The translations under genes were made by a program, and so were the position numbers. DNA of 64,000 nt from positions 15,917,803 to 15,981,802 of the forward strand of contig NC_040027.1 of assembly GCF_000972845.2 (NCBI RefSeq), in the 5' to 3' direction. Positions 31,077-57,351 of this stretch are shown here, piece by piece (position 1 is the stretch's first letter; the number at the start of each line of letters is the position of its first letter). Origin of the DNA: Larimichthys crocea (lineage: Eukaryota > Chordata > Actinopteri > Sciaenidae). The notes under the pieces were generated by a model. The model made no database searches. It was not told the origin of the DNA and saw only the letters and a list, made by a program, of their open reading frames with translations.

Positions 31077-31285
31077 GTGGCTCTGATTGTAGAAGAGGTA
31101 AGAGGGTGTGTGTCCAAACCCTACAATCCAGTCACTCTCCCCCAGCCCCCTACGCAATTTTCACGGAGGCTGGGTTTCATCAGGTTTTGTATTTCAGACC
31201 TATTGATTATCTGCAGTGAAGGGGCACTGTGACAAAACCTCAGCAGGAGTTCTCCATCTGCAATAAGCCATGTGCCAAATACAAG

Positions 31286-31320
<35 letters not shown>
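31286..31320. repeat. (TC)n(AC)n microsatellite
   Basis: TC units pass into about 13 AC units. In the inverted copy near 47555 the tract is much shorter. Confidence 0.9.
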
Positions 31321-31325
<5 letters not shown>

Positions 31326-31711
31326 CTGCTTCTTTGCTGCAGAAAAGTATACTCGCAACTAAAAACAGTAAAACTCGTCCTTGTGTTGGATATTTTAGGG
31401 GACAACAACAAAAAACATTCAGTTTTATTTTAACACACGTGTAACATTTTAAAGCTGTCTCTCCTCTTTGTTTTTGTTATTCTCCTTCATTTGAAGGTTA
31501 CAATCGGTTAGCTGATCGATTCGCCTTTAGTGAGGCCCAGTGTCTGTAGTCCTCTCCTAATCGATTCTTATCTCCCTGACCTTTCTGTAACTTAGACAAA
31601 AGGGAGACACGCAGGTAAAAACACAACAGAGAGGACAGCACGCAAGCACGCCGACGGCCAGACTGCTGGGCACACAAAGATCAGAGAAGAGTTTAATGTT
31701 TAATGCTCTAA

Positions 31712-32440
31712 ATCAGGGGTCTTCAACCAGGCGTCCGTGACCCCTAGGAGGGTCCTGTTATGCCCCAGTCTAGGGGCCTAGAGCATAACAAGAAGTAGGT
31801 GTCTCAATCTTCCCCGAGTCCCAAGTAGCCACTTACACAAGTTTAGGTACAAACGAAAAAAAAAGGTTTATTTACAAAAGTCAAAATCTCAAAAAACTAT
31901 AACTAAGGAATCATCTTCAGGGTGGACCCAGGCCAAAACAACAACCAAAACAAATTATCTTGAAAATAAATCACTTCTCTCAGAAAATCAAAATCACAAT
32001 AAACTTACCTTCCTAAACTAACAAAAACAGGAGAAAACACAATCAAACAAAATGGCAATCCACCCCTACTCTTTAAACAAAAAGCTACTTCTAAGGTCAT
32101 ACGAAGAGTTTTACAAAAGGACATGTGGCGATAGTTGGGAGAGGAGGAGGATGAAGAAGTGGTGTCCACCTGGCAGCTGCCATCTTGGCTCCTTAAATCT
32201 TAGGGGCTTTCAGGTACAGCCAATCACAGGTCAGGACCGGAAAATTACTCCACCAATCGCCTCCTGGGGATGGCACATCCTATTTGCATACGAAAATAGA
32301 CAGCACAAACACAGGGCACACAAAGAAACACACACAGACTACAAACAAATATGACCACAGTCATAACAGTCCGGGGAGGCACTGCAAGGGGTCCGCCAAC
32401 TTTTGTCATAATAACTGACAATTTTCACCAACATAATTTG
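31712..32440 (+). repeat. Older interspersed repeat split by a solo LTR
   Basis: The left part (AGGGGTCTTCAACCAGGCG, then GACCCCTAGGAGGGTCC) and the right part (GTCCGGGGAGGCACTGCAAG, then GGGTCCGCC) join into a repeat head typical of fish hAT-like elements once the LTR at 31756-32368 and one copy of its 4-base duplication are removed. The right boundary is uncertain. Confidence 0.55.
31756..32368 (-). mobile_element. Solo LTR of a retrotransposon, about 613 bases
   Basis: The element starts TGTTATG and ends CATAACA, an inverted repeat with the TG...CA ends of LTRs. It is flanked by a GTCC duplication (31752-31755 and 32369-32372), the 4-5 base target duplication expected of Gypsy-type or retrovirus-like integrases. 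On the minus strand it has a TATA-like AGATTTAAGG about mid-element and a GTAAATAAACC polyadenylation signal in the last third, in the order promoter then poly(A). No internal genes remain, so it arose by recombination between two LTRs. Superfamily is not determined. A degraded copy lies at 46489-47102. Confidence 0.7.
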
Positions 32441-32747
32441 TGAGAATTAAAAAAATATAACAAAAACGAAAATGAGTAAACTGCAAGCATTAATGTGCAA
32501 TAACAAGCTTTTTATAGATTATTCCATTATGCATGAAGGTTTTATCAATCATAAACACATACAGGATAATAACCCAGTATATAAATAGATTAATAAGGTG
32601 AAATAAAAAGGTGAATAAAGTAAATATAAAAGTTATTATAGAACATGTGAAAAAGGCTGATTTAATTGATTAATTTGGAGCCTCTGAGGCCCTTTTAAAG
32701 ATGAAGGTTTTTTGGAGAGACGCTCAAGTATTTTGACGCAACTCGAC

Positions 32748-32763
32748 GCCCATCTAGTGGCGG
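32748..32763 (-). promoter_or_regulatory. CTCF-core-like motif
   Basis: On the minus strand CCACTAGATGGGC matches the CTCF core (CCASYAGRKGGC) except at its last base. It sits about 115 bases upstream of the nr2c2ap start codon. The raw copy near 46105 reads CCACTAGATGGCG, which fits the core fully. Motif evidence only. Confidence 0.3.
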
Positions 32764-32821
32764 AAAGACTAAACAGCTACGCATGGACCTCACTGTCGTA
32801 AAAAAACAAAAAAAACAAAGC

Positions 32822-32835
32822 GTTGCCAGGGCAAC
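32822..32835 (+). promoter_or_regulatory. Palindromic RFX X-box in the nr2c2ap promoter
   Basis: GTTGCCAGGGCAAC has both perfect half-sites (GTTGCC and GGCAAC) with the usual two-base spacer. It lies 41 bases before the nr2c2ap ATG, in a CpG-containing promoter-like stretch. RFX-family proteins, including the RFX complex that contains RFXANK, bind such sites. Occupation is inferred, not shown. Confidence 0.5.
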
Positions 32836-32875
32836 GTTTGCCGTATCGCTTGACGGCAGCTTGGTCTTTTCGGAC

Positions 32876-33262
32876 ATGGCGTCCTCCTCATTGATCTGCA
32901 GCGAGACTCAGAGCAGGTAACGTGAGGACACACCTGTAACGTGAGGACACACCTGTAACGTGAGGACACACCTGTGAGCGAATGAAGCTTATTCAATGAA
33001 GACAGAACAGACTGTCACGTTTGAAAGACTGTCTCTTATTGGTTCAACATGAAACGATCTGTGAATGCCACATGTGCTGCTCTCTGCTGTCATCCAGTGT
33101 GATGTAGTGATGTAGTAACCTCTTTATACTGTCACTGTTAGTAATGGTAAAAACTGATGCTCCGATTTCAGGGTGAGTTCAGTCCTCAACAGAGATGTGA
33201 AGCAGTATGGAAAGAAGTTCATGTTTGACTGCAACGAAGAGACATGCTGGAACTCAGACCAG
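32876..33262 (+). CDS. nr2c2ap: NR2C2AP exons 1-2 (5' half of the gene)
   Basis: Nuclear receptor 2C2-associated protein (TRA16) is known in mammals to bind the orphan receptor TR4/NR2C2 and repress its activity. Exon 1 is 32876-32916 (MASSSLICSETQS plus a split Arg) and exon 2 is 33172-33262 (VSSVLNRDVKQYGKK ... ETCWNSDQ). These match the human N-terminus, including VSSVLNR and EETCWNSDQ. Donors are AGCAG-GTAACG and ACCAG-GTAAAA; the exon 2 acceptor is GATTTCAG. The ATG is the first in a CpG-containing promoter stretch with an X-box 41 bases upstream. Exons 3-5 are at 55913-56967; all five exons give 142 residues against 139 in human. Between the halves lies the 21 kb wrongly oriented self-copy, so the long intron 2 is probably not real. 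Confidence 0.93.
32917..32973 (+). repeat. Three tandem 19-base units starting at the exon 1 splice donor
   Basis: The unit GTAACGTGAGGACACACCT is repeated exactly three times. The first GT is the actual nr2c2ap exon 1 donor. Each unit recreates GTAACGTGAG, but only the first is preceded by exon-like CAG. The inverted copy shows about two units. Confidence 0.9.
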
Positions 33263-33274
33263 GTAAAACACTAT

Positions 33275-33308
33275 GATATATATAGTATATGTGTATATAT
33301 ATATATAC
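33275..33308 (+). repeat. (TA)n microsatellite at the left breakpoint
   Basis: TA-rich tract in nr2c2ap intron 2, directly before sequence that no longer matches a normal intron. Its counterpart in the inverted copy is the longer TA tract at 45511-45590. Probably the site where the assembly originally broke. Confidence 0.85.
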
Positions 33309-35734
33309 TGGGGCTAGCAGATTGAAAGGGAAGCCGGCGCTCGTGATAGTATCGGGTATAAGAACACGATGATTATGTATCTTGACTTATATCTCTGCGG
33401 ACACGGAGAACAACAAGTGACGCAACACATGTGGGTCATCTGTCAGACGACAGATGTAAACTGGGTCAATTTTGTACCGTTTTTACACTCGGCATGTTTT
33501 TATCCCCTACTGATTACAGACAGCATAGATTGAAAAAGATAACATACTCAGTAAGGACGGTTCAACTATTTCTCTGTTCACATTTAAAAGCAATTTATTT
33601 AAATTAATTGACATATGAGGACAAACCTTTGTAGAATTATGTAGTGTTTTGCTGAATTGAGAAAAAAACAACGCCCGCTTGATTCGAACTCTCATCTGAC
33701 ACCCAAGGCAATGTTGCCCAGGATCAACTGGGCAAATTTCTAAAAAGGCTTGTTCATTGTTATAATGTGAGGAAATACTTTAACATTCCATGTATGGTGG
33801 TGGCTGTTTCTTTTCCTGCCAAGATTTTGTGCACAAATGTGCAAGATAAATGCGTTATGTGTATGATATTGTATCAAAATGATGTTCGTAATCAACTTGT
33901 AAAAAGTTAATGGTAAATTTGGAGAAAGACTAAATTCGAGAATTAAATGTAGATGCATTTTTTTTTTTGACACGCTAAATGAGGAATTGGAAAATAGATG
34001 TTTACAAAACCCTGTTCGGGGACCTGTAATCGTTAAATGGCACATTCATGACGATATGAAAACACAGGCCTGAATGTGATATATAGTCATGCCGCCGGAA
34101 GGGATTACTACCTTGGGGACACCAAAGATCTGTACGAGGTGCATAAGACGGAAGTGGATGGGGGGCATGGAATGGGAGCAGAGTGACAGAAGAAGGGGGA
34201 CGTGGTCAGAGAGGAAGGGGTCACAAAATCGAAGACATTAAGAGCTTCATGACAGGTATGTCAGTGGGAAAACAAAAAAAAAATAAATGAATTAAATAAA
34301 TAGGGAAACAAAGAAAACAGAAAACCAACGAAGCTCCTCCCATTAACTACAAAAGAGTTCACAGAACAGGCCTGATCAATTTTTGGCAAGTTAATGGGGG
34401 AATCGAATTGTAGAAACTTAAAAAAAGGAAAAGTTGGATTTAGGCTGATGTAAAAATATTAAGGATGAGTAACAAATTATAGGTATGGATTAAATCAAAC
34501 AAAATGAAACAAAGGTTTGTATCTGAAAAAAAGGATAATGAGGAGTGTGAGCCAAGAAGAATACAGAGACAAGTAAATAGGAAACAAACTCAGGACAGAA
34601 ACCGTGATTAGTCCTCAGGCACTGAGTTTAACTCAATTGGGTCCGTGGAAAGAATGTAAAAAAAATAAAGCAATTTGGTCAGTTAATAGTGAGGGAGATT
34701 CGGGAGAAAATATTACATTGTAATGTAGGTGGAAAAAAGGGGGGGGCAGTAAAAGTCAAATTACACTAAAGGTGTGTGACAGTGAAACAGTTTCCAAATA
34801 TAGGGGGTGAAATAAGTGTGACGAAGGAAGTCACGAAAATAAATAGGATTCAGTGAAGAGAGCTGTCGAAATAATTTGAGGGTAGTGACGCACATAGCAA
34901 CCCCGGAAAATAACCATGGGGCCCGTAGGAATGGGGAGGGGAGCAAGATTCCTCCAAGTTCGAAACAGGGCGCGGCCTAAAATTTTCATAGTGGGGCGTT
35001 GGTGGGGGCTATAGACAGTTCTGAAATCGCCCAATTAGTCCCAACAAACGAAAAGGCGTGCAAGGCAACAAAGGCAGCACACAAGAAAACAACAACGCAA
35101 AAGAAGCCGGTAGGTGCAAGTTCTCAGACTAGAGGGTCGTGATAAAAAAGTGCCAAAGTCAAAGTAACGAAGGCAGGGTAAAAAGGCACCAAGACAGATT
35201 AAATCAAAAGTGAAGATACGCGGAAAGAGAAATGGGGAAAAAGACCTGAAAGTACATGAAGAGAGAGGGAGGGAAGAGGGGGGAGAGGGAGGGGGGTGAA
35301 AGAGGAAATGACAAGGAAAACACGTGTGCGGTGGAAGTCGAATAAGCAGGCAGGGGGAGGATGCTAAAGTGGATGCATGAAACAGACCAGGCGGACGTGC
35401 AGGGAGAATGGGCACCGGGGAAGGGGATCGACGGTTGCAATGATGTGGTGACTGTGGCGGTGAAAATAATACCGACATCTGATGCATGTGCCCAGGGCGA
35501 CGACGGAGGACAAATACAGTCCGGCTGCCTCAGGGATGTGCACCAATAGATCACTGTGAATACAGGCACCTGGAAAAAGACAAGGGCAGAGGGACTCTCG
35601 TGTCACTGGGGGGCGCACGCACAAGGGTTACCGCTTGCCACGTGATAGAATGGGCTTCTGACCCTCTAGCGGGGGTCGGGCGGGAGAGCCAGTGTATTGT
35701 GTACATGGGGTTGGGAGGCAGTGGGATTTTGATT
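33309..35734 (-). other. Degraded copy of 61.05-62.47 kb
   Basis: The left end (CCGGCGCTCGTG near 33332) matches the reverse complement of the tmem221 stop-codon region at 62455. Clear further matches are 33745-34080 with 62140-61865, the segment around GAAGTGGATGGGG near 34151 with 61795, and 34320-34400 with 61680-61600. From about 34.4 to 35.7 kb the text is mostly unalignable by eye. Reading frames of 100-150 codons here are not genes. Confidence 0.8.
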
Positions 35735-36672
35735 GTTTGGTACCCACCACCCCCACCCCCACCAACAAACCCCACACCCCAAACACACCACCCCCCACCC
35801 CCAACCCACACCCAACCCACATCAACCAACGACCCAAAACCAACAAACACCAACCCAGCCCCACCAACAACCCACAAAACACACCCCCCCCCCACCCACG
35901 GCACCCAAACCAAAGCAAACCCCCAAACCACCACACACATCCCCCCCGGGACCCCAACCCCACTCCACAAGGCGCCCACCCCACCAAACCCACACCCACC
36001 ACCCAAAAACCAACAACCCCACAAAACACACAACCAACCCCCAAACCCCACACCCACCCCAAACCACCAACCACCCCCCCAAACCCCCCACCCACCTACA
36101 ACAACACCCCCCCACCAATACACAAAAACCCAAACCCAACCACCAACACCACACACCCCACAAAAAAACCCCAACCCAACCCTACCCGCACAATCACGAC
36201 CACCCACAACCCACAAAACCCCACACACCCACAACCACAACCACACCCACCCCAACAAACACACCCACCACACCCCCCCCCAACCACCCCCACCCGCACC
36301 AACCACGCAGCCCAACCCCCAACCCCAACAAACCCCCCAACTGCCCATAATAGCCCCCACCCCAACCCTAAACCACACACCCACTCCTCATCCACCCACC
36401 AAAACAACCCCCACCGTACCCCAGCACCCATCCAGCACTCAGCACAATCAAGACCACCCACCACCACCACCCAACCCCCACCCCCACCAACCACCAACCC
36501 AAAACCCCCACCCCCCACACCCCACCCCAACCCACCCCAACCACAACCCACAAAAACCCAAACACCAAAACCCACCCTGTTTTGGTTTTTGGTCTTTTGT
36601 TTTTATTTTTGTGGTTGGGTGTTTGTATTTGGGTTGTTGTTGGGTTTTTTTGGTTGGTGAGTGTAAGTTTTT
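35735..36672 (+). repeat. Almost pure C/A stretch followed by a short G/T-rich stretch
   Basis: From about 35742 to 36575 the plus strand is nearly all C and A in irregular order (CCACCCCCACCAACAAACCC style) with only a few G or T. From 36576 to 36672 it becomes T/G-rich. It has no period, so it is not a satellite, and it has no counterpart in the genuine locus around 61.05-61.5 kb. It produces reading frames of 407, 322 and 277 codons that are pure low complexity. Probably a base-calling or sequencing artefact. Confidence 0.75.
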
Positions 36673-38600
36673 TTTTTCCTTGAAAGTGCTTATCGGTTCC
36701 TTCTGCTGATGGATTGAACGGAGGAGTCCGGCGATGGTGTTTGAGAATACTGCTGCTGTTTCGGCATGCGGCGTCACTGCACGTGCAAAAACAAACAGAT
36801 CAATGGAACGGTTAACAATTACATACAGAGGCAGGCTTGTCTGGAAATAATTGTACAAGCATGTATTCGGCTTGTCTTCGCACTGCTGCATACTCTAACA
36901 GTGTAGAATGGCTCCTTGAATCGGCTCCCCCAGCTCTGGCATGTCTGGCGTGTGGGCGAGGAAGAAAAAACGGACCGAAGGGGGACCACCAAAAAAAAAC
37001 ACATTAAATGAAAAAACAGGCGAAAGTCAGGTCAAAAAAAACCAAATAGAGCATTAACCAAAAAAAAGAATCGCGAAAAGGTGATTGGGGAATTCAAGAG
37101 GAAACTATAGAGTCCAAAATAACTGAAAATGAAGGCTGTCCCAAAAGGACCGATCTTGTAGAGGCAAAAGCACATATTACAATCAAAAAAAATTATAACG
37201 ATACCAACACATGAAAAGACAATGAATCTCCGATAGGCAATGAGGTGGTTAATCCTTCTGATTTTCAAGTGGATACATTCAACAAGTACAAAATGCTAAG
37301 AACAGAAGAATGGAAAAAAAAAGTCGGCGGGCGAAGGGTAGGGTAAGGGGAGTAAATAAAAAAAAATCCCTTTGATAGAACTATAAGGTTTCCTGAACAA
37401 AAGGGGGAATTGAAGACACGTTGGTCTAACCAAATGGACACAAAAAGTCCCGTCAGAGAAGGTACGAAAGAAGTGTAAATAAGAACCATTGAATCGGAAT
37501 TAAAAAAATGGGATCAAAGGAGAGTGTTTACAGATGGGCGTAATAAGGTTTGCGGGCGTCACGCGCTTAGCATGGACTGCAGGCATGATTACCATACAAA
37601 TATCTTAAGATACGGAACAAAGAACAGCGAAAGGATGAATGGAAAAGGAAATATAAGGGATAGCAACGTGACTATTAGGTTTTATGTGTTTTCTTGCAGA
37701 GGATACGAACTCGAAAATAATGAAAATTAATCGTATTATTTTGGCAGGTACAGTTCCAACGACTGGGAAAGAAGCGGAAGTTGGAAAAAAATGGGTGATG
37801 GTAGAGAAAAGGGAGGAGGGGAAAAAAGAAGAAGTAAGAGCCTTAATTAGGGCTTCACGGATGAGGGAAATTTTATCTGGTAAAGAGAAAAGTTTTTGGT
37901 TCGCTAACAAATAAAGGGCAGAATAAATAATTGTGATTTGTAAGTCATATGTGTTGTCTGTAACTCAATTTGATTGAAATAAACTACAATCAATCGGGGT
38001 GAGGAAAAATCGTATCGTGAAAAAAGGAAAAACGTAAGAATCGAGTCGTGAAAGTCGAGGGGTGTAAATCGTTACAAAAACAGAAATCCACAGGGGGAAC
38101 AGGGGGTGAAGAGTAATAAATATGAGGGCAAAACAACCCCAAGACGTGTCAATGAAAGGTCTTAATTGTTAGAAGGTTTTGGAGAGGTGTCAAAACAATA
38201 GATGGAAATGGGGGTCCACATTGTGTGTGAGGATATAGTAAGGTAAATAGGGGTCAAGAATCAGGGGTAATAAAAAAACACTAAACAACAGACAAACAAG
38301 AACAAAAGGCACAGGACAGCAGCAGCAGCAGCAGCAGCAGTGGGTGGAGAAAGTGAGGGGGATAACCTTGGTGGTTGCAGGGGAGGGAGACGACAGTCAT
38401 GGGGGGGCGGAGGTATACGCGGGGGTGGGGCCTGAGCTGGGTTCTTCGCTGCGGGACCGTGGATAACAGAGAAGGGGGCCAAAAGGGGGGACCTACGGCT
38501 CGTTGAGCGCAGCACGGGTGGACATGCGCTCCTTTGAAAATTATTTCAGTCACATGCGGAAAAAGAAAGGTTTTTCATGGAGAAGGATGAAGGCACACGG
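36673..38600 (-). pseudogene. Degraded inverted copy of borcs8
   Basis: Exon 4 and exon 3 of borcs8 are recognisable in reverse complement at about 36680-36780 and 36890-36950, separated by a copy of their intron. The CTG/TTG tract of intron 2 appears as a CAG run at 38318-38340. The first part of exon 2 appears at about 38490-38560 (CGGCTCGTTGAGCGCAGCAC). Every exon has multiple indels. It is part of the self-copy and not an independent pseudogene. Confidence 0.8.
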
Positions 38601-38999
38601 TGAGAGATTAAAACAGGAACAGGCAAGAGGAAAGAAAGACACAAGAATATGAAAAGGGAAACGGTTAAACGGGACAAAAAAACAGACAATTAGCATACGC
38701 GGGGCTTAACTAGCTGCGAAAACGTAAGACCCTAGCTAAACAGGCGGAAGTTGTGCCAAGGAGGCAACAAGGAGGGAGTAGATACGAATGGGTGCTGGGA
38801 GTGTAAACATGGAAGGGGGCGAAATGTTTAGGGGGTAACCAGAGAGGGGGAAAAGAAGGTCGTGCTGTGACTATTCAAGCTGCAGGTCTCCTGGTCCCTC
38901 GCAAAGGAGGTAATAAGCAAAGAGCTGGGTTAAAGTCACGACAAAGGGAAACAACAGAGCAGGGGATCAGGCTGCAGAAAGGAAACTGTGTAGGTGGGG

Positions 39000-41900
39000 A
39001 AAGCGGGCTAAACGTGGAATCAGCTGAATGTCTCTGCGGTCGGTCAGGGTAACCTGCTATTCCGTAAGGTTAAAAGTTGTTTGTATTGTTAGTGTGGGTG
39101 GGCAGTGTGCCGACAAGACGGGGGGGGTGAGGTAATAATATCACAGTGGGACAAAAGAGAGCACGATTAGGAATTGAAGGGGGTTGAGAGGGCGGGGAAG
39201 AAGGAAGAAAGGAAAGGCAACAAAGGAAGAAAAAAGCACCACTTTTCCTCAAAGGAAAGGTTAAAGTAAACGGAGCCGTGGGTCAGGTCACTGATATCTG
39301 TTTACCAAAGAGTTGAAAAAAAATTTGCTGTGACGTGCTGCGTCATAAGCTGCAGCGGAATGTGAATATCATGAATGGTGTTATACGTCGTTGCACTTTG
39401 GAATATGAAAATGGACACCGGTTCACAGAATACCGGGTCGTAGTGGTTTATTTCAACAAAAATCAATAAATTGACGTAGAAATTCGAATTTGCGGCCCAC
39501 AGGGAAAGGATGAAGGGTGGGTTATGACGGGGCGGGAGTATGTAAGGTGAACAGAAATAAAAAAAGTACGAATGCTTGGGAATGGGGTTGTGAGAGTGCA
39601 CCATGAAAACTCGATAATTCAATTGAATTAGTCTGAAACAATAATTTTTGTTTCTTGAAAGGTGAGTAGTCCGAGGGGATAAGGTCACGGGGGGGTTGGG
39701 AGTAATTACGTAGAGAATATTGGATGATCTGTAAAAATGGGGGAAATGATGATTTTAATATAGTATGTGTTTTTAAATTTAAAGATAATATTGTGCGGAT
39801 CCATGGCATTGAAGCAGGGATGTGATTAAGAGTGTAATGCAAAAAGATGATGCCCAAAACAATATTCAGAAAAAAGAGAGAAAAATACAGGAAAAAATCA
39901 GCTAAAACGCTTGATGTGATTTTGTAAACCCGATCCGAAACCCAAAGAGATAAGGAAGAGTAAATCCCACAGGGTGTACAAAAACATTTGGATTCTTATG
40001 TTTAGTTGACATCATGCATGGGAAACAAATTGGAATATTTTTAAAAAATAGTTGAGTTTGTAAAAGTATGTTCCTTTTTAGATGTAAAGGAAGAGAGAGC
40101 CGAGTACAACGGTACGTTGTAAAGATATTGACCACACAAAACGGTGAATTGATGGACCTGTGCTGCACCATAGAGAGCATGGAGTGTAAAGTCGTGAAGG
40201 TGATTTATGTAGTACGGGAGGCACGGCGGGGGCACCGACGTCTGGGAAGAAAAAGGGGAAAAGAAAGAGAAAAAGAAAGGCTGAACACCACACAAAGCAA
40301 AAAGCGTAGGGGCAAAAAATAAGACAGGTTACAAGTACGCCCAAGGGGGCAAACATTAGACGTATAAGGTACAGTAGTGTAATCAGCAGGGCAGAGATGT
40401 GTGGAAAATATGTGGTTAGGGTTGTTTCCTAAAGTTAAAACCGATGAAGGGGTAATTGGTAACAAAACGTTTTAAAAGTTTCCACAGCTCTGTCCATAAC
40501 AGCTGGGCAACGCACAAAAAGGCGGGGAGGTGTATGCAACAAAAGCACAGTGGGATCTTCTCAAAGAAACTGTGGTGGGAATTTGAGGGAATCAATGAGA
40601 AAAAATAATAGACAAGGAAGCCAGAGACACAAACCATAACAACGGCGAATGTACACAACATCAAAAAAAAAAAAAGGCCAAAAATCGCATGTATGATCTG
40701 TAAAAACCTGGGTGTATTATATGATATTGTAGAAATTTTGCAGAAAAAAAAAAAAACAGGCCAACTCTGGTTGAATCTGCAAGGACGGACAGGGATGAAA
40801 CGGGGTCGTAAATACAGGCACCGAATCAATCATAAAATTTGTGGCAGAGGCGGACATAAATTGTGGGTAAAAAGAGACAGCAAAGAAAATGTTGGCGGGG
40901 ATTATCGGCGGAAAAAAAGAAAGGGGTAAACTATTTAGAAGGGAAATAGAATAAAAAAAGAAAGCTGAGGGCGGCGGTGAGGAATCGGCAGGAAATAAAA
41001 TACTGTATGGGGTATATAAAAGACAAAAACACAAAGGTTATACAACAAAAGTCTCACAGGATGTTGTGTGAGATGGTATGAATTATGTGGTAAGATTTTG
41101 TTTTTGTGATGTTTAGGTAATGAAAGACAAAACAAAAAAAAGGGGCCAATGGGGGGGCAATCGCGAGGGGAGGCGAGAAAGTGCCTGGGGACGCTGCCAG
41201 CTCGGGAGGTTATGTTGGACATTGGTTTGAGTCTCTTCGTCATACACGGGTAGGACATTAAACGACTTTAGAAACTATGGTATGAGGAAGGATGGGGACG
41301 ATCATCAGACCAAAAAAAGAGTTAGAAACAATAGTTGGGGGGGGTAAAGTTACAGGTTACGGGAAATGAGGGGGGTCGGTAGGGTGCAATATAACGAATA
41401 ACACATGATGGCAGTAGGGGGTTTGGTGGAATATAATAATTAAGGTAGTGTAATGATTGAAAAAAAAGAAATACTCGGATAACTGTAGGGGAACTCACTC
41501 TTGACTAAAATTAATGTGGCGGGAAAAAGGTGCGACGAAACCACATCAAAAGTGGTTTAAGGGAGGGCAAGCTAAAAGGGCTGAGAAGTGACCGATGTTG
41601 TAAAATTCCGTATAAAGAATCAGAAGTTATCATAAAGGGGGGTGGGGGGTGCGTGAGTATAAAGTGGCCTGTGTTTAATTGGACAAAGGATTAAATGATC
41701 CATTGAAAAATCGGTATAACAACAAATCTCTGCAGCGAACGATGAAGGGGGGCAGACATGACCATTGAGTCTCTGACGCTGGTAACATCCCATGGCTTAG
41801 CTGTGCCCTCGGACACAAAAAGAGTAGTAATTTGTCAGTGTGTTTCTCGGTACGCGTGATAATTTGTTCGGCTGTTTTAAAGCGATATGTAAAAAAAGTG

Positions 41901-42040
41901 TTTTATTTTATTTTTCTGAAGAATAGGAACAAATTTTTAAGTGGTTCCTTTGTATTTGTGGCTAGTTTCAGCAGTGGTAATGGGAGGGCCAGAGGTTGCT
42001 GACACTTCTACAAGCCGCCGAACGGGAAAAAGTGGACGAG
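39000..42040 (+). pseudogene. Degraded inverted copy of rfxank
   Basis: Plus-strand matches to rfxank exons: exon 5 at 41146-41262 (GGCAATCGCGAGG ... GGAGGTTATGTTGGACATT), exon 7 at about 41750-41850 (CAGACATGACCATTGAGTCT and CCCTCGGACACAAAAAGAGT), and parts of exon 8 at about 41980-42030 (ACAAGCCGCC). Exons 1-4 are weaker, between about 39 and 40.9 kb. Inserted bases are everywhere. The left limit is approximate. Confidence 0.78.
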
Positions 42041-45000
42041 CGAATAAGGTGAATAGAAAGCGAAATAGGGGAATGAGACAAGTCGGGGAAAAACAACTGG
42101 TGGGTGAATACTCAGAGTCTACAAAAAAGGACCAGCCATCGCAAAACCAAAAAGAAAACCGCGAAACAAAAACGGAAGCACCAAAGAGCAGTAATGTAGA
42201 CAATGAACCAGGATAACAAGAATCAAATGTAACACGGGACCAGTACAGGGAGAGCGGCAATTAGGGGACAGCCGATGCAACGGGAGGGGGAGCATGGGTC
42301 GGGGGATATATTTGACAAACTTTTATTGAAAAGAAAGAAGGATTCCATTTGATGGCATTTCTAATATGTGGGCATTACAGAGACTGTAAACGGTTTTAAT
42401 AGAAAGAGTGTTATTTTTAATACGGGGGGGTGTTCACTGAATGGCGCTTTAAAACAGACTGGCAAGAAAAGCACAAAATGGAAAGGGAGGGGAAGAAAAG
42501 GAAAAAAGGGGAGAGGGGGGGGGGGAAAAAGGGGATACCGAGAAGAAACATGGGATAATAAAGGTCCATTAACATCTAAGGCAAGTGGGTAATAAAAACT
42601 TGAGGGGGGTCGCCTGAAGCTATAGAATTGGGTTCAACCGTCTGTTAATGTAGAGTGGGAAGGGGTAAGACTGGCCGGAATGAACAAGATCCTTTGAAAC
42701 ACAGTCCCCTGACGCAAGAAAGATAGCGCCCATTTAGATCGTTGTCGATACCGAGGGTGTGGCGACAAAGCACAATAAATGACGAGAGATGATAGGTGGC
42801 GGCAGGCAAGTGGTAGCAGCCGAAGGGGGAAGGGGACAGCGGGGCAGACAAAATAGCCTGCAGCATGGCCGATACTTGACAAATCGGAAGGGGGGAAAAG
42901 GAAAGGGGGGAAGTAGATATCTTGCCTCTCGTCATGAAGGGAGTATTAACAAGCCGGGAAAGTCATGAGGGCTTTTTTGCGGCCAACAGCAAGAGACGTC
43001 CAGCAAGAAGGAAAACGAACAAGATGAGGAATGAGAGTCGCTGTGGGGGGGGCGCAAAAAAGTGTGTCAGAACCCTATTGTGCAGCAAAACATTAGTGAT
43101 AGTTGACTAGTGACATAAGTGACACACGGAGAGAGAAAAGTCGCAGTGCACAACGCAGGCTCAAATGGAAGAAACAAGGATAACCAAAAGCGAAAAGTGA
43201 GGGAAAAAGGTGTCCGTTGTAGAGGACACAATAGGTGGCGTGTGTTGTATAGTCAAAGTTAAGAAACTGCGGATGATCTAAAGCGATAAGTAGGCTATCA
43301 TGAAAAGCATGCCGGCAGGCAGGAAAATATTGTCTGATACTTATTATGAACCATCTAGAACACCAACAGGAAACACACTGTGTCCTGGAGTGACAGGTAC
43401 AGCTGAGCCGCTGGAAGAATCTGTAGATTTATAACTCATGAATAAAGCAGAATTCCTTATTATAATTTAACTATCTGTTAGAAAAAATCAGCAATGAAAT
43501 ACCAATATTATGTCTGGTTCAGCTTAATATAATTTATTTCACACATCGTTAGTTGTAATAGAGTTGTCAAGCAATCAAATAAAAATCAAATAGTTTACAG
43601 CTTAAATTGATTGCAATTCACTATTTGTCACTGGTAGACTAACTCAGTTTGCATCTGAATAAGTCTACTTTTTTTAAATGTACATTTTCCATTCACTGGG
43701 CCTAATCTAATTAATTCATTTAATGAATCTAGACATTTAGTGGTAAAAATATAAGATATTTATTTAATTCTTTCTTCCACATTTTGCGTTGAAATAAATA
43801 AATACTTCACAGGGATGGTCTCATCATGAGCACTACTGACCCTGTTATCAATCATTTGCTGCAGTAACACTGAAGGATATCTGAAGAGAGTTGTCGTCTC
43901 TGGATATAAATGGCTGATCACCGTAAAGTCCCCACCTTTGGGCAACCTGCGGAAGGACAAACATAAAACACACTAATATCTTGTTGGCAATGGGAAGCAC
44001 CAAAATGTTAAGCTGGTGGATGATCACATGAGGATGAGGGTTACAGTTGGAAATGGCCTCTGGGTTTTACCTTCTAATCTGCATGTTTTTTGCAGAGAAG
44101 CCTCCCTGGAACTGGACCTTTAACTCTGACACCTTGACAGACTGGGGGGAACTCCAGAAACACCCACTGATATTCACCCTGTCAAAGACATTTATAATCA
44201 TCCACTGTGACATTAACAGTATCACACCCGAGTGTCAGTGGGAATTTTACTTCTCAGAGAGATCATGCATGCTCTCTAACTATCAAATCAAAAAATCGAT
44301 AACACAGTGCTGACTAAGACCAAAAGGAAACACACATATTGCCTATTTTAAATCTTTACTTTATATCACTGGTTATCTCTTTTGTATGATTAAAAAAATA
44401 TTTTATTAGTTATAAAAGTACTACATGACCTTGCACCAGACTACTTCTCACGAATACTTTTGGTTTATGAACGAGGAAGGCCCGCGCGTTCTCCTTTTTG
44501 CTGTCTCCAAAGCAGAACAGAAACATTTGGTGATGCTGCCTCCTCCCAACTAAAAACACGTCTATTCTGACTGGCTTTTAGGTAGTATTATACTTATTAT
44601 CATTGTTTTTTTATTATTTGATTTTTAAATCAAATTTTACTCTTTAGTATAATAATTGATTTGTACAGGGTGAATTTTACTACTATTAGTTACTATCTTT
44701 TATATTTTAACTGACTACTATAATCTTCTTTGGTATTATTCAGTTAACTTTTGGTTGTCGTTGTGTTGAGTCTATTTCTATGTCAAAGCACTTTGCATTT
44801 ACTGTTGAAAGATGTTATGTAAATAAATATTGTTAATAAGTTAACGATTGATTGATTTGAGTCATATTTGTTGTTTGTTGTTTTTTTTTATCTCCTCCTG
44901 CCACATATAAATGCAGTAGCTCAGTCCCCGAGCTTGGCTTGGAACTGGAGGTGGGGCCGATTCAAAAGGGCGCGCTGCTGGGTGGCTGTCCATCACTCCT

Positions 45001-45081
45001 CCATCTCTCTCCACATTTGCATGTGAAACCATGTGTACATGATCATGTGTGTGTGTATTTCGGGTTAAATACATGTAAAAC

Positions 45082-45521
45082 TGAGTGAAAAAAGAATCCC
45101 CCCTCGGGATATAAAAGTCTCTCTTTTTTTTATATTATATTATATATTATAATAGGTTGTGGGCATCTATAATGTTTTTCCCTGGAAAACTGATAACTGA
45201 GTTAATATGCATACTATAAAAATGCTTTTACAATGCTGTTCACATGTGCAAAAAATATTTTTTTTAAAAGTAGCTGGTAGTGAAATTGATTTAGGAACAT
45301 CTCAGAAGATTACACCGCACTTTGTACTTTTTCTGGTGTTCAAATATATTATTCTTTTCTTTCTTTTCTTTTCTTCTTTCTTTTTTTTATTGTTTTACAT
45401 GTTCAAAATACATTTTTCAATCAATCAAAAAAAAGTGTTTATAATTGCTAGTATAAAAGTTTAAAAATTTGATTCATTGTATATTAATGCAAACAGCAAC
45501 ATAGATGACCATATATATATG

Positions 45522-45564
<43 letters not shown>

Positions 45565-45604
45565 TATATTATATATATATATATATATATCAGAGTGTTT
45601 TTAC
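45082..45604 (-). other. nr2c2ap intron 2 sequence missing from the main strand
   Basis: This lies between the copied exon 2 donor (45605) and the copied segment that matches 54950 onward. It has no counterpart near 33.3 or 54.9 kb, so it probably shows what belongs in the gap: a long TA tract (45511-45590), a CT-rich run near 45355-45390 and AT-rich single-copy sequence. Confidence 0.65.
45511..45590. repeat. (TA)n microsatellite in the copied intron
   Basis: About 80 bases of nearly pure TA with a few interruptions, longer than the 34-base tract at 33275-33308 that it corresponds to. Long TA tracts commonly stop short-read assembly. Confidence 0.9.
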
Positions 45605-46488
45605 CTGGTCCGGAGTGTCCAGGCAATGTCTCCTCGTTGCAGTCAAAACAGGAACTTCTTTCCATACTGCTTCACATCTCTGTTGAGGAATGAACTCACC
45701 CTGAAATCGGAGCCTCCAGTTTACCATACTGAAACTGACAGTATAAAGGGTTACTACATCTCACTCACATCGGATGCGCAGTAGAAGCAGCACATTGGTG
45801 GCATTCACAGGATCGTTTCAGTGTTTGAACCAATAAGAGACAGTCTTCGTCAAACGTGACGTCTGTGTCTGTCCGGACATCAATAAGCTTTTTCATTCTA
45901 GTGTGGTCTCACGTTACAGGTGTGCTCCTTCCTCGTTTACCTGCTCTGATCTCGCTGCAAGTCAATTGAGGAGGACGCCATGTCCGAAAAGACCAAAGCT
46001 GCCGGCAAGCGATCGGCAAACATTGCCCTGGCACGCTTGTTTTTTTTTTGTTTTTTTACGACATTGAAGGTCAATGCGTAGCTGTTTTTAGTCTTTCCGC
46101 CACTAGATGGCGTCCGAGTTGCGTCCAAAATACTGGAGCGTCTCGGCCAAAAAACTTCATCTAAAAGGGCCGCAGAGGCTCCAAATTAATCAATTAAAGA
46201 ACCCTTTTCAAATGTCCCTTATAACTTTATATTTAACTTTATTCACCTTTTTATTTCCTTAGTAATCTATGTATATACTGGGGTTATTATCCTGTAGTGT
46301 TTATGATTGAGAAAACCGTTCATGCATAATGGAATAATCCTATAAAAAGCTTGTTATTGGCCTTAATGCTTGCAGTTTACTCTTATCATGTTTGTTATAA
46401 TTTTTTAATTCTCAAAAATTATGTTGGTGAAAATTGTCAGTTTATTATGACAAAAGGTGGCGGACCCCTTGCAAGTGCATCTGCGGAC

Positions 46489-47102
46489 TGTATGACGGGG
46501 TCATATTTGTTTGTATATGTGTGTGGTTTCTTTGTGTCCCTGTGCTTGTGCTGTCTATTTGCGTATGCAAATAGGAGGTTGCCATCCCCAGGAGGCGATT
46601 GTGGAGTAATTTCCCGGTCCTGGCTGTTGATGGCTGTACCTGAAGGCCCCTAAGATTTAAGGAGCCAAGATGGGGCTGCCAGGTGGACACGCACTTCTTC
46701 ATCCTCCTCCTCTCCCAACTATCGCCACATGGCCTTTTGTAAAACTGTTTCCGTATGACCTTAGAAGTAGCTTTTGTTGAAGAGTACAGGGGGACTGCCA
46801 TTTTGTTTGATCGGGTTTTCTCCTGTTTTTGTTAGTGTTAGGAAGGTACGTTATTGTGGTTTTGATTTTTTCTGAGAGAAGTGATTAATTTACAGATAAT
46901 GTGTTTGGGTTGTTGTTTTGGCCTGGGTCCCACCTGAAGATGGGATTCCTTAGTTTATAGTTTTTTGAGATTTTGACTTTTGTAATAAACCTTTTTTTTT
47001 TTGTTTGTACCTAAACTTGTGTAAGTGGCCTACTTGGGACTCGGGGGAAGATTTGAGACACCTACTTCTTGTTATGCTCTAGGCCCCGAGACTGGGCTAA
47101 CA
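46489..47102 (+). mobile_element. Copy of the solo LTR inside the inverted copy
   Basis: Reverse complement of the LTR at 31756-32368, with scattered indels. The ends are eroded (TGTATG and CTAACA). It is flanked by the same older repeat, showing it was carried along with the locus and is not a new insertion. Confidence 0.8.
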
Positions 47103-50100
47103 GGACCCTCCTAGGGTCACGGACGCCTGGGTGAAAGACCCCCTGAATTAGAGGCAGTTAACATTAAACTCTTCTCTGATCTTGTGGTGCCCAGCAGTCT
47201 GGCCGGGGGTCGGGCTTGTGTGCTGTCTCTCTTTGTGTTTTTTTTACCTGCATGTCTCCCTTTTGTCTAAGTGAAAGAAAAGGTCAGGGGATAAGATCGA
47301 TTAGGAGAGTACGACAAGACACTGGGCCTCACTAAAGGCGAAATCGATCACTAACCGATTGTAACCTTCAAATGAAGGAAGAATAACAAAAAAAAGAAGA
47401 GAGACAGCTTTAAAATGTACAACGTTGTTAAAAATAAACTGAATGTGTTTTTTGTTGTGTCCCCTAAAATATCCAACACAAGGACGAGTTTTAACTGTTT
47501 TTAGTGCAAGTATACTTTTCTGCGCAGAAAGAAGCAGTGCAGTGGGTTGTGGTGTTGTGTGTGTGTGAGAGCTTGTATTGGCACATGGCTTATTGCAGAT
47601 GGAGAACTCCTGCTGAGGGTTTGTCACAGTGCCCCTTCACTGCAGATAATCAATAGGTCTGAAATACAAAACCTGATGAAAAAACCCCCCAGCTCCGTGA
47701 AAATTGCGTAGGGGTCTGGGGGAGAGTGACTGGATTGGTAGGGTTTTTGGACACACACCCTCTTACCTCTTCTACAACAGACCACACTCTCCTCTCTCCT
47801 CACACACACACACCCTGGCATTACGAATGTTGGTTCGTAAACAGCATCAGGTTTTTAATACCGGGCTGTCAAAAGGTTTAAGACTGAGCATGAATTGTTG
47901 ATTTAAAAGCTGCAGTAATATTGTACTGTCCCCATATCTGTGAATAACCGTGAAAGGTATATCATTGGAAGTCCTTTGTGTAGAGGTGTTAATCAGAAAA
48001 ACGCTGGCTCAACAATTAGTTTGCCAGGTCTCAATTTTGGCCTGTAAGCATTTTGGGACACCCACCTGGCCAACAGAGCCATGTGGCGCTCACATGGGTG
48101 AATGATGAGCTGGCATGGGGAGCCATAAAATGTCGCTGCTCAGTAAAAGGTCCTCATGTTTGCATTTACCAATGTGAGCTGCGTAATAATGCCAAGGTGG
48201 GCTGCAGAGCAGGGTACTATACAACCTCACATGGGCCCTCTCTTTGTGTCCTTACCGTTTTGCACTCCAGGAAGAAATAGTCCGATGCGAATAACGTTTG
48301 AGTAAAACACAACTTTATGTTTTAAATACGCTCTGTTTTTATACAAGTAAAAATGAAATGAAGAGTTGCGAAACTTTAGTGGTAAGCTGACTCCTGGCGG
48401 TGTTAGCTTTATATTTTAATGGACCGGACATAGAGTGGTATTGATCTTCCTCATCTAACTCTTGGAAAGAAAGTGTATTTCACAAAATGTCCAAACCATT
48501 TTTGAGATGGATTGAGGAGAGATAAAGGGAGGTAGAGGGGGAGTAAAAGATGGAGGGTCAAAATGGAGGAAGGAACTTGAAACCAATTATGAGTCAGGCA
48601 ATAGTACAGGCGGGCGTATGATGGAGCAGACTGCAGGGTTGATTGAGCGCGTCCCTTGTAAAAAGTAAGGTTTTTTAGGCTGGGAAAGGTATGTATGGCA
48701 GGGGAAGGGAGGCGACAGACAGCTTTTGTCGGAATCTCCGCTCTAACGTCTCATGGATGGACTTGGGGAGTGCACTACTGAAAAATTCTGGCCTTTCGAA
48801 GTTGGCGATGTAGACTGACTTGGTACAGGATTATCTCACCTCTGTCCTCATAACGGCGTAACTTCATGTTCCCTCGGCCATCGGTGTCACCTTCTATCAC
48901 CACTATTACGGCCTTGCGTGATTTGCTCATTTGAGTTTGTGTCATACACTCATGTTTCGTGATCTGGGTTATGTCCGAAGAGGCAGATTAGAGGTTAGCA
49001 AACTAACTTTGGGCTTAACCCCAGCTGGCCTTTTAAGTCTCTTTTCACCTGTTGTTTATTATTTGCCGATGAGCAGGAACTGTAATGAATTGCACACTAT
49101 AACCTTGGCAGGTTGTACCTCGTGTAAGTATCTTTACAATCAACGCTTTGGAGTCTAGAATGAGGGATATTAATGCTTCTTTAATAGTGGTTTTTGTTCT
49201 GTCAACTAAAACACAGATTGTCCTGCATTGGAGGCTGGGTTGATACTAGAAGCCTTTGTAGCAGTGGTCCCCCAGTGGCATTTGCTCACTCTACAAAGAA
49301 CTCTACGCAAATGAGCAGAAGGATATTATTGTTAATATAATCAGGGCAAAAACGTTGTTGTCCCATCTCCTTACATTCCGTCCCACGGAGTGATCAAGGC
49401 GATTGCGTTGCACATAATGTCCCCTTTAAAATGCAGCTTGGAGAACATAAACTGTCCGGTGATGAGCAGAAATGCTTTTGCAATGGCTTCATGTGACTAT
49501 ATGTTTTCAATAAAAGGTACGTCCACTGTGCCTGGATGATTGCTCTTAGAAAGTTCCTGGCCATGCAAGTGGACCCTTGGAGCATCTCAGTTGACTCCTC
49601 TACTAGTCTTAGCAACGACTAGAGGTTACTCTGACAATATATTTTTGCACATTATTTTATCAGCATAACAAGTGTTGTGCTTTTCGACAAGAAGTGAATC
49701 AATTTTAAAATCAATTTCCTTCCTGTATCGCGCCTTGTTTGCAATTTCAGTACAATCACAGTGTTACTGAAAAGTAAGATTTTCTTTTTTTTTAGTTCTA
49801 ATAATGTTGAAGGTAAATTATTCGATTTACATACCATTAAGTGGCCCTTCTAATAGCGTAGAAGGTTTAGTTTAGGGGAATGGACCCAATTTTTGAAAGA
49901 TTTCTGGATGAGAAACTTTAATTTAGATTATGAAGACAGAATTATGGACAAACAGACGAAAGCCTGTGTCATATAGAAATGGGCTGTATGTTCGGGCGGA
50001 ATGTACCAGTAGGCAATAACAGATGCTTCAGGAGGTAAAACAGTCCGCACTATGGGTCTATTCCAGAGTTTATGAGCTCTGGCCAAACATTGTGCACAAT

Positions 50101-53100
50101 TGTCTTAATGAGTTGGGTGATTAATGCTCATGCGGCTGTCAGTGTAGGGACACAGCATTTGGGTGGGCAGCACTACAGGCACATCGAGCTGGTCACCCTT
50201 TTGGTCCCACAGGACAAACTAACTGCACTGACCTGTACTTTATTGAACTTTTTGTAGTTTAGTTTGATTAAGAGAAGTCTGCCTGAAAACCTAAAACTTT
50301 CCTGGGGCAATGGATAGTCAGCTGGGGGTAAATTAGTAGGCTAGTCCCCTGGTGGTGTACGTCAAGGCTGAAGAGAAAAAGAAGAAAAGAAGGCTGAAAC
50401 TTCTGAAGGATAATTTGTTGTTTTTAGAGTTTTTTATCGCATTTGTTTTATTGGGACTAGGGTGGTTCATTTAGCTTGTATTAATGATTTAACAAGCTCA
50501 GCTGCCTGAAATCCTTCGGCAAATTGGGTAGAGTATGTCGTAGAAATTAGGATGACACAATGACCGCTTAGTCGTCGTAAATCATTTAGCGTTAGGGAAG
50601 ACAACAGTTGGCCGTTCTTTGGGGTTTCAACTAATTAACAATAATAAAGCAGACAGATGGGCAGAAACGGTGAGGCCACATCGGTCCACTGCTGGCAATA
50701 ACACAGGATCTTGAGTCATGGTGCCGTTTTCCGGGCAGAACTCCTCGCTCAGCCCTGTGTCGGAAATTTTCGCTCCAGGTTTTCAGGGCGAGGTTTCTCT
50801 AATTAAATTCAATTAAAAAAAGCAGAGCATGTTGCGCAATATGCGCCGCTGCCTTCTTACAAAACACGATCACTTGTATTTATTCACTCGCAACGAAGGG
50901 GAGCAGCATATTTGACTCGTTGCCTGCAGCTCTGTTTTGTGTGGACACAGGGGAGTTGGTTGGGTGTTTTTGTTTGTGTGTACTTCCTGGCAGCGTAAAG
51001 GTGGACACGCAGACTTTTCACAGCCTTAAATTACTGAAAGACGAGGGATGACGGAGGATAATGGACCTCTGCGATTACGTTGGCATTGTGTCCAAGTGTT
51101 TGGACACTCTTGGCTGGCAGAAGTATCAAGAGAATACACTGGTAAATTCTTTTAATATAGCAATCAAGGTGAACAAGCAAAGGTAACCACAGTTTTTTAA
51201 AACATAAAAACAATATTGGTTTTAATTATTCAAGCAACATATGTCCAACATAATACGGCCCTGAAACCCAGTAGGCTACACTGCAGATGTAGGGCCACCA
51301 CTACAGTATAATTAAATAGCTGAACACAGCAGGTAAGGAACTGCAATTCCTTGTTTCCCCAGCTTTGTATCTCCACCTACTGCAGCATAGCAATGCCGGG
51401 ATTTTAATGAAGTGGTGGCTGCTTTCCACGGTCATGCTCCAGCATCAAAATCCTGCTTGCTCTGATGTGGCTGGAAGCCCACAGGACATGGCTCGCTCAA
51501 CCCCTCCTCAGTTTGCAGGCTCACTACCCAACGGCATGCCCCGGGCCATCTGAATAGCCGAGCAAATAAAGGGCCGGTAGTAATGACCGGAGCAGCTAGT
51601 GGACGACCAGCGGATGACCGCAGATGGTAAGAGAAGCTAGAGCGTATCATTTTATAGGAGGTCATGGGGATTTGGTCTGAAGAAACGGGCAGGGGATCTC
51701 ATGGTTGAGGAGATTTGGCTGAAATGAATGTTTCAGGTTTATAGCTTGAGACTAGAAAACAATGGAAGATAAATTCGATGGATTAGCAGAGATGTAACAT
51801 TCTGTGTTTTCTTAGAATAATTACACGCAGTGGCATTTAAGACTATGTAAGTGCTTCCCAGATACAGATAGACACATTCTTTGTTCTTTTAGTGGTGCAC
51901 ATCGTTTCATTTCACCCCTCTTCAGCTCGAGCGTGTCTAGACGAGGAGGAGAAGTAATCCTCCGCTCTGTATTCCAGGGGTTAGCCCAGCCGCATACATG
52001 ACCCCACTCCCATTCCTCTAATCTCTTTGGTCTCACTTTATTCACAGCAACACACCTTGTGAACACAAGCAGCCAGGCATCAGAGCACACTTCACAGGAC
52101 CCTCCCACCTCCGTTTTTTCCTCCTCCTCCTCCTCCCCTCTCCGCAGAAGCTCCTCCTCCTCCCCTCCTCCTCCCTGTTCTCTCAATAAGGAGAGGTGTG
52201 CAGAACCATCGTCGGAGATCACTCAACACAATTTACTGTTGTTGTGTGTTTCATGTCACCGGTTCTTGAAAGCTGCTGTGGGGCAAATGTATTGGATCTC
52301 CTAAATACTTGGTGTCAGATGAAGCAGAAAACCTGTACGTAACAGATTCTTTAACTTTTATCACATGCTGCTCTCAGAGGAATTATGATAATCACGTGTA
52401 CCACTATGAGAAGCTGAATCAGGCTCCTAACAGTCCTCTATAGTGGCGGATGCACAGTAACAACACTGTCTCAGGCAACCGAACCTGATGCACTTTTTCT
52501 GATTACCACCCATTTTCTGTCTACATTTTCGTTTTTGTTACACCGTGGATGGAACAGAAGAGAAAAGGCGAAAGGATGAAAATGAAAACCTGTGTGGAGT
52601 TGAGCGAGAAAGTGAGTGAGTAAAAACCACACAGAGAAACAGACTCAAGCGCAACACAACAGAATAAAAAAGTGAAGGCTGCATATATAAAAGCAGTAAC
52701 TCACTCGCCTACTCCATAACTGGAGAAATAATGCTGGTTTGGTTGGGGTGTCCACAGTGCAAAACAAAGCCATCCACCCACATAAAGCTCCATAAAGAGA
52801 GGAATTATAAAAAGAATCACATTCGTATAATTATGGACTCACCTGTTTAGAACCTGTTTGTTCAGCAACTACAAAGTGGTTTTAGTTCTTTCACGCTTTG
52901 TTTTGATTTTACGGCTCACTACTGATTCAATCTTTCAATCGTCACCCTTGGTTTCCAGAGGCATAAGCCAGTGATACATAATACTACCGTATAACATCAG
53001 ACGACATATAGCAAGCAACGGTGAAACATACAGAAGCTAAAGAACAAGATATTGAACTAAGAGTAAGGTGCAGACTAAAACAAAGCTAAAGAATGTGCAT

Positions 53101-54673
53101 AAAAAATTAAATAAAACATGATGAATGGAATGTAATTGGACTCCAGTGTTTGCTGAATCTGAAATAAGAACATTTAACAAACTAAACATGGTACACAACA
53201 AAATTACTCGATAGTTTACTGGCACTGTGGTGTTTACGTTGTTGCGTTCAAGTGCTTAAAAATCACTAAGTACAGGTTTCATGATTGGATATCAATATCA
53301 ATGAAAGGCGTCCCCACATTTCTACATACAAAAGCTTGATTAAACAGGGCAGTGCTGAGAGGACTATTCAATATCTTCTTTACAATTTTTATTTTGCATG
53401 ACTCATTTGCCAAAATACATTGTTACAGAGAAAAACTCTGTAAAAATAGTTCAACCAACTCTGAGCAATAAGAACAGGAATTATCAGTCCATTGGTAAAA
53501 GAAATCGTTTTGAAGCCCGGCATCAAGTGTGTGCAGATTAAAATAGGAACGGTTCTGTTTTCAGTGTCAGGGCATAATAACACCTCTAACAAGCTGCAAA
53601 CAGGTGTGCTGGCGTTAGCGATAGAAACAGAAGTTTTTCCTAGGGTTAGCCAACTATTGGAAATGGAATAAGATGATCATACTGTGGAAACTGCAAAGCA
53701 CAGCGCTCAGTCCCATGCCCTGAAGTAAAAGACATGTTCCCGAAATATTCAGAGCCCAATTACAAGCACCGCTGTGGTTCAATAATGATCGAGAGTCACT
53801 TACACTGTGTCTGGATATTTAGGGGAAAAAATGATTTACAAAAGAATTCACGATCCTGTTAACGCAACAGGGGGTGGAGACATCCGACTAAATGTAGTTT
53901 TAAGTCATTAAATACATTAAAATGTGAATGTTAAAGGTGTTCCTGTTAAAATCGCTGTTAGTGAAGGAAAGAAGAAAAATATCAACATATGAGAACCCTA
54001 AAATTTTTAGCAGTATGTACTCATAAATACATACATGTAAAAGTAAATTTTCCCAATCAGAGAACCACAGAATTAGGTTGGCAAGTAAATGGTGGTGCAG
54101 CAAATGGTGGTGCTGTGGGTTAGCACTGTCCGCTTCACAGCAAAAAGGTTGCGGTTCGAACCGCGGCTGGGTCTTTCTGTGTGGATTTTCCCTACACCTT
54201 CTCTCCAGGTACTTCGACCACAGTCAAAAGACATGCAATTTTGGGGGGGATTAGGTGACTCTAAATTGGTTGTATGGAAAATGATGTCTTGGAAAAATCA
54301 CACACATATAGGCCATTCGGGTGGGGTTGAACGAGTCGTTTTTTTTGAGCTACACCGGCCTGTGGACACATATGTCAGAATTTGATTTATTTTAAATTAT
54401 ATTAAAAAGTAAAAGCGAAGTAACACTGGGACGCTTATTAGGGTTGGGGTTTAAAATTCTGAGACTCCTGGATATAATATGTAGATTGTAGATGCTGTTG
54501 CAATAATCATACCGCATATGAAAATTAAAAAAGAATGAAAGTTTTAATCTCATAGTTTTTTTAAACAGATGGCAGAAAGTGTTAAGGTTTTCTTACATTG
54601 ACATTGTTTTGGTTATTTCACGATGGACTTTTTAACATAAAAGTAAAAAAAAAAGTAAGTAGAAAGATTCAGG

Positions 54674-54740
54674 GGCACGTGCAGCGCCCTGGGCGGCCGC
54701 CCACAATTGCCCATAGCTAGGACGCGGCCCTGGGACACAT
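54674..54740 (+). mobile_element. Small hAT-like fold-back insertion seen only in the inverted copy
   Basis: A GC-rich 51-base segment (54682-54732) begins CAGCGCCCTGGGCGG and ends GCGGCCCTG, giving short inverted ends. It is flanked by GGCACGTG on the left and the similar GGACACATG on the right, as an 8-base hAT duplication would be. The genuine arm at 24490-24505 reads CTCACGTGCCCC with no insertion. After it, the match to the left arm continues to about 54768. Confidence 0.45.
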
Positions 54741-54768
54741 GAGATAAAGTAGTGTTTTTCAAGCACTG

Positions 54769-55912
54769 CCAGCAAGCACAAATCAGAAACAGTGTCTTTG
54801 AAGTCTTTGAATTCCAAGTGAAACAACATTTCAAATTCCTATTTAACATTTTTCTAAAAATCTCTAAATGCTGCCTCGAAATGATCATGCCTTGTAAGGA
54901 CATCACCTCATCATGACTTTATCATAAAGAAGAAGAAGAGATACTTGTATTATTCCCTTGAAGGTAAATTCTTTTTTCACTCAGTTTTACATATATTTTA
55001 ACCCGAAATACACACACACATGATCATGTACACATGGTTCACATGCAAATGTGGAGAGAGATGGAGGAGTGATGGACAGCCACCCAGAGCAGCGCCCTTT
55101 TGAATCAGCCACCCTCCAGTTTCCAAGCCAAGTCTCTATGGACTGAGCTACTGCAATTCATATGTGGCATGGAGGAGATTAAAAACAACAACAACAACAA
55201 ATATACTCAAATCAATCAATCGTTAAACTTATTAAACATATTTATTTATATAACATCTTTCAAACAGATAAGATGCAAAGTGCTTTGACATAGAAAAAGA
55301 GACTAATACACAGCAAGACAACCAAAAGTTAACTGAATAATACAAAAAGAAAAGATAATAGTAGTCAAGTTAAAATCATAAAAGATAGTACAAGTAATAG
55401 TAGTAAAATTATCACACCCTGTACAAATCAATTTATTATACTAAAGTAGTAAAATATTGATTTTAAAAAGATCAAATAAAAAAACTGATAATAAGTATAA
55501 TACTACCTAAAAGCCAGTCAGAATAGACGTGTTTTTAGTTGGAGAGCAGCATCACCAAATGTTTCTGTTCTGCTTTGGAGAACAGCAAAAAGGAGAACCT
55601 GAGCGGCCTTCCTCGTTCATAAACCAAAAGTATTCGTGAGAAGTAGTCTGGTGCAAGGTCATGTAGTACTTTTATAAACTAATAAAATATTTTCTTAATC
55701 AATACAATAGAGATAACCAGTGTAAAGAGTTTAAAATAGGCAATATGTGTGTGTTCCTTTTGGTCTTAGTCAGCACTTGTGTATCAGATTTTTTGATTTG
55801 ATTATAGTTATAGAAGCATGCATGAGTCTCTCTGAGAAAGTAAAACTTCCCACTGACACTCGGGTGTGATACTGTTAATGTCACAGTGGATGATTATAAA
55901 TGTCTTTGACAG
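54769..55912. other. nr2c2ap intron 2, right part
   Basis: Bases 54769 to about 54940 match neither arm. From about 54950 the sequence matches the copy at 43300-45080 in reverse complement. It contains a probable non-LTR element (55180-55740) and no exon before 55913. Confidence 0.6.
55180..55740 (-). repeat. Probable non-LTR retroelement remnant
   Basis: Segments such as CTTTCAAACAGATAAGATGC, AAAACACGTCTATTCTGACT (minus strand) and CACCAAATGTTTCTGTTCTG resemble a widespread fish LINE-type tail. No reverse transcriptase is encoded. Boundaries are rough. Confidence 0.35.
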
Positions 55913-57302: not shown

Positions 57303-57351
57303 AAAACTTGTTTACAGTCTCTAATGCACACAAAGCTATGTATCCAAATGG

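Follow-up and report, generated by a model that had tools for sequence, protein, structure and literature searches.

Is the second, reversed set of genes that lies within a single intron of this locus the result of a gene duplication, or was it created during assembly? The question arises from the window analysed here, a stretch of 64,000 nucleotides of Larimichthys crocea DNA, in which a block at positions 33309-54768 (minus strand) corresponds to the reverse complement of the sequence on both its sides. The left flank, designated A (24473-33307, plus strand), harbours one coding exon of the gene named nr2c2ap in a preliminary description of the locus and ends in a (TA)n tract. The right flank, designated C (54924-62461, plus strand), harbours an nr2c2ap exon, ankyrin exons of rfxank on the minus strand and a BORCS8 exon on the plus strand. 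Both flanks appear to be the genuine source, and the order along the window is A, reversed C (C'), 420 bp, reversed A (A'), and C. Judged from the sequence, the block is very probably a misplaced raw long read, placed in reverse and left untrimmed, and would be an assembly artefact, not a real gene duplication.

Layout of the block and its flanks

Self-alignment of the window (matches of at least 100 columns, E up to 1e-10) revealed seven inverted pairs, six of which are associated with the block; the remaining pair (2621-2764 with 20145-20301) is a short dispersed repeat outside it. The block coordinates and the mirror order proposed in the preliminary description are confirmed. In a finer self-search, 24496-33307 of A was found to pair with 54681-45559 on the opposite strand (87.0% over 9417 columns), 45559-54681 (minus strand) being a copy of 33307-24496. 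The start of C (segment C1, 54924-56822) pairs with 45138-43285 on the opposite strand at 90.8%, and 43285-45138 (minus strand) is the cleanest part of the block. The remainder of C, up to 62421, is recovered in 42741-33419 as five pieces of 61-86% with uncovered stretches between them. One row of 40 bp (58938-58977 with 44891-44856, E 5e-4) departs from the diagonal. In the noisy half (33309-43284, minus strand), which copies C between 56823 and about 62461, the length is increased by insertions of which 76-87% are A or G. The window contains no N bases.

It had also been proposed that the block equals the reverse complement of 24470-62470 with the block itself left out. Both flanks are indeed mirrored, but the mirror is incomplete, because three stretches fall outside it. 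The 155 bp with which the right-hand sequence begins (54769-54923, plus strand) have no counterpart that was found in the block; compared with the block centre and with the sequence preceding A, they scored within the range of shuffled sequence. The centre itself (45139-45558, minus strand, 420 bp) contains a (TA)n tract and has no full match in either flank; it would correspond to the piece lacking between A and C, in the form given by the read. Finally, most of 34576-36672 is noise, 2097 bp standing against 399 bp of source (61040-61438).

The ends of the block coincide with the outer ends of the flanks. At the left edge block position 33323 corresponds to 62461, with a score of 30 against 28 for the best of 1000 shuffles, a thin margin; at the right edge 54766 corresponds to 24473, with a score of 42 against 26. 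A looser edge test, in which the right-hand region was mis-set, remained below the shuffles on both sides (39 versus 49 and 18 versus 42). Seven segments were scored against 20 shuffles, 10-11 unrelated stretches of the window and the direct strand. Segments A, C1, C2, C3, C4 and C5 scored far above all of these, the control for A being restricted to the initial 2000 bases of the reversed flank. The fraction of flank bases kept in order was 0.93, 0.93, 0.91, 0.91 and 0.94 for C1 to C5, compared to maxima of 0.65, 0.78, 0.79, 0.74 and 0.71 among 10 shuffled and 5 unrelated references per segment. The seventh segment, 61040-61438 against 34576-36672, barely exceeded its controls in score (-2821 versus -2831 for the best control) and in kept fraction (0.967 versus 0.962), and was rejected as a convincing source of that stretch.

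The order of the block is, on this alignment, that of an other-strand reading of one molecule spanning A, a missing piece and C. The junctions also bear on a missed hairpin adapter, by which a PacBio read runs out and back on the other strand and is taken as one sequence. Such fold-back reads are a known source of inverted copies, and the copy of the locus that they yield has, as in the present case, the quality of a raw read; missed adapters are reported in about 1% of PacBio reads (PMC3504050). A fold-back, however, would give a sequence directly followed by its own reverse complement, joining C to C' at one point, and this is not seen. Instead, the end of A abuts the distal end of C', and the start of C is preceded by the distal end of A'. 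This junction order does not fit a fold-back read, which is the most improbable of the origins considered here.

Error spectrum of the cleaner half

Over the 10711 flank bases of A and C1 together, the block differs from its source by 2.5% mismatched, 6.7% inserted and 4.2% deleted bases. These comprise 410 insertion and 340 deletion events, i.e. 750 indel events versus 273 substitutions. When scoring was set to favour substitutions, 566 indel events versus 498 substitutions were counted; the indel excess depends on scoring, yet it is present under both scorings. In C1 alone deleted bases (100) outnumber inserted bases (55). Transitions and transversions stand at 69:171 in A and 13:20 in C1, and at 125:309 and 24:40, respectively, under the scoring that favours substitutions. 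Random error leads to a ratio of 1:2. A short ordinary repeat pair in the window, treated alike and small enough to allow only a rough comparison, displayed 12 substitutions (7 of them transitions) and 3 indel events.

PacBio sequencing has been described as having about 15% error skewed to insertions, and simulated PacBio RS reads as carrying 2% mismatches, 4% deletions and 9% insertions (PMC3504050). The profile of raw PacBio CLR reads, with insertions exceeding deletions and few mismatches, is found in A and C1 taken together. The error rates calculated for the block resemble those of PacBio CLR reads, and PacBio is probably the platform from which the read originated.

The noisy half and its two-letter stretches

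Between 33.4 and 43.3 kb the block exceeds the length of its source through inserted bases. The share of A and G among these is 85% in C2, 87% in C3, 85% in C4 and 76% in C5, compared to 65% in A and 35% in C1. Of the flank bases of C2 to C5, 91-94% are present in order, versus 70-77% by chance and at most 71-79% in shuffled or unrelated sequence. Homopolymers of at least 6 bases occur at 7.5 per kb in 33309-43284 versus 2.0-3.6 per kb in the four other parts of the window.

Within this half, 35741-36672 consists of two-letter noise without a clearly alignable source, as indicated by its composition and by the segment score barely above controls. In 35741-36580 A or C is found at 795 of 840 bases (95%), and in the 92 bases that follow G or T at 86 (93%); the maxima outside the block in scanned windows of 500 bp are 67% A+C and 60% G+T. 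If PacBio chemistry pairs its dyes as A/C and G/T, for which no confirmation was found in the literature searched, the two stretches would be single-colour noise, which is taken as a lead only.

Genes in the flanks and their broken copies

A Pfam scan was carried out with seven open pieces of C. Four of these reached a family cut-off, namely BORCS8, Jiraiya and two ankyrin exons, and no family was obtained for the other three. The BORCS8 exon on the plus strand (PF10167, E 1.1e-17) has a further match, at 5.3e-8, to a BORC subunit 8 homologue of known structure. The Jiraiya piece on the minus strand (PF15038, E 2.9e-13), which we take to be TMEM221, has its coding end just past the end of C. 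One of the ankyrin exons (minus strand) matches structures of RFXANK (4.8e-9), but ANKRA2 matches slightly better and many further ankyrin proteins match as well; the match is not specific to RFXANK, so the name rfxank also rests on the neighbouring genes.

No Pfam family was found for the exon of the interrupted gene, presumably nr2c2ap. Its exon in A has an open frame up to a splice donor after 33262, and the splice phase fits from there to the exon at 55913, with GT as donor and AG as acceptor. This continuity across the block indicates that A and C are neighbours. Without the block, the intron between these two exons would comprise about 45 + 420 + 989 = 1454 bp, in good agreement with the about 1.4 kb predicted earlier for the rebuilt intron between 33.26 and 55.9 kb, and it would be up to 155 bp longer if the initial stretch of the right-hand sequence belongs to it. 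Six exon pieces, with limits set by hand from the open frames, were compared with their copies in the block; one of them, 58013-58141 of rfxank, was truncated at the segment boundary 58126. All six copies carry indels, from 2 to 32 events each, and in five the net change in length is not divisible by three. The versions in the flanks are open frames.

These broken copies have to be weighed against a real inverted duplication, in which template switching would have copied A to C from a sister or homologous chromosome and inserted the copy, reversed, at the (TA)n tract of its own source. Duplications of the DUP-TRP/INV-DUP type are an example of inverted duplications arising from template switching and, like the block, they place an inverted copy within its source. 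The copy crosses the insertion site without containing the insertion, as if taken from another chromatid, breakage at the (TA)n tract is plausible, and one junction has an orphan stretch of 155 bp. On this account the block would be of raw-read quality because a single read covers the insert. However, open exons in the flanks stand against single-read error in the block, while a real locus would share the depth and consensus quality of its neighbours, and the block contains nothing past the span of one read. Stretches of A+C and G+T noise would not survive consensus. Furthermore, a surplus of indels over substitutions under either scoring, together with an excess of transversions, is unlike vertebrate divergence. 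A real duplication would be expected to display mainly substitutions, an excess of transitions and consensus-quality sequence, and none of this is seen in the block, whose error spectrum and noise appear instrumental, not evolutionary. A real duplication is therefore considered highly improbable. The same low likelihood is given to its narrower form, in which one chromosome of the sequenced individual carries the inverted A-C copy at the (TA)n tract and a single poor read captured it.

A probable misplaced read at a (TA)n gap

The preliminary description had attributed the block to a mis-oriented raw long read left at a (TA)n gap. This attribution is supported by the error spectrum, the two-letter noise, the broken exon copies, the edges that meet the flank ends, and the continuity of the genes. 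In the proposed course of events the assembly would have broken at the intronic (TA)n tract between A and C. A ends in a TA run, and the block centre contains a (TA)n tract. At this tract, which is difficult to assemble, the insert adjoins the flanks, and with the block removed the locus is continuous. One error-rich read of ~21.4 kb would have run through the break, with ~8.8 kb lying in A and 7.5 kb in C, and the block as a whole would derive from this single read. Most likely, the entire read was then inserted by a gap-closing step where only the roughly 420 bp bridging A and C should have been placed, in reverse and with its overlaps untrimmed on both sides. The true locus, as reconstructed from the flanks and the block centre, is A, about 420 bp, and C.

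Against this account, gap closers normally trim and flip reads. The most closely related failure encountered is that of the 'overfilled' gaps of PBJelly, in which raw PacBio sequence likewise lies in a scaffold gap and exceeds the content due to that gap (PMC3504050). In those cases two-sided extensions lack an identifiable overlap, whereas here a whole read, with both of its overlaps kept, has been reversed. A whole reversed and untrimmed read in a gap is not described in the sections of the gap-closing literature that were searched.

Gap closing is most likely the step at fault. A variant of the same reading differs in the misplacing step alone, and a minor share of the high confidence in a misplaced raw read belongs to it: a stray contig made of one read, and possibly derived from the other haplotype, may have been inserted in reverse between A and C during scaffolding or assembly merging. 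The sequence evidence for this variant is the same; overlaps untrimmed on both sides would be natural for a whole contig, and two inserts in the block, described below, would be allelic. Scaffolders normally leave runs of N at joins, however, and since the window has none, gap closing is favoured and the stray contig is regarded as unlikely.

The first of these inserts, of ~58 bp, is GC-rich and absent from A (54682-54739); by eye it has near-repeats of ~8 bp on either side. Its motif suggests a possible small element of hAT type belonging to the haplotype of the read, i.e. the other allele. The second, of 28 bp (53147-53174), likewise has no source in A and is not purine noise; a full-length second copy was not found in the window. 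Neither insert resembles noise, which counts against a misplaced read; a second haplotype would fit both, and they may derive from one. The thin margin at the left edge and the 155 bp unmatched in the block also speak against the preferred reading. At 54769-54923 the read and the contig end disagree, as the read runs through that point and yet leaves these bases unmatched; the mismatch would reflect either variation between alleles or an error at the end of the contig. As a separate observation, A contains an identical 42-bp unit twice (24844-24928), and the block alignment lists no matching deletion of at least 6 bp at that place.

Consequences for annotation

Biologically, the block is nothing new, and annotated copies inside it would be false. 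In an annotation of this assembly, nr2c2ap, rfxank, borcs8 and the end of tmem221 could each appear a second time in broken form, and the nr2c2ap intron could be given as 22.65 kb where about 1.45 kb is likely. The block could also feed false calls of duplications, inversions or pseudogenes. Errors of this type could be screened for by the combination of reversed flank copies, indel-rich differences and two-letter noise.
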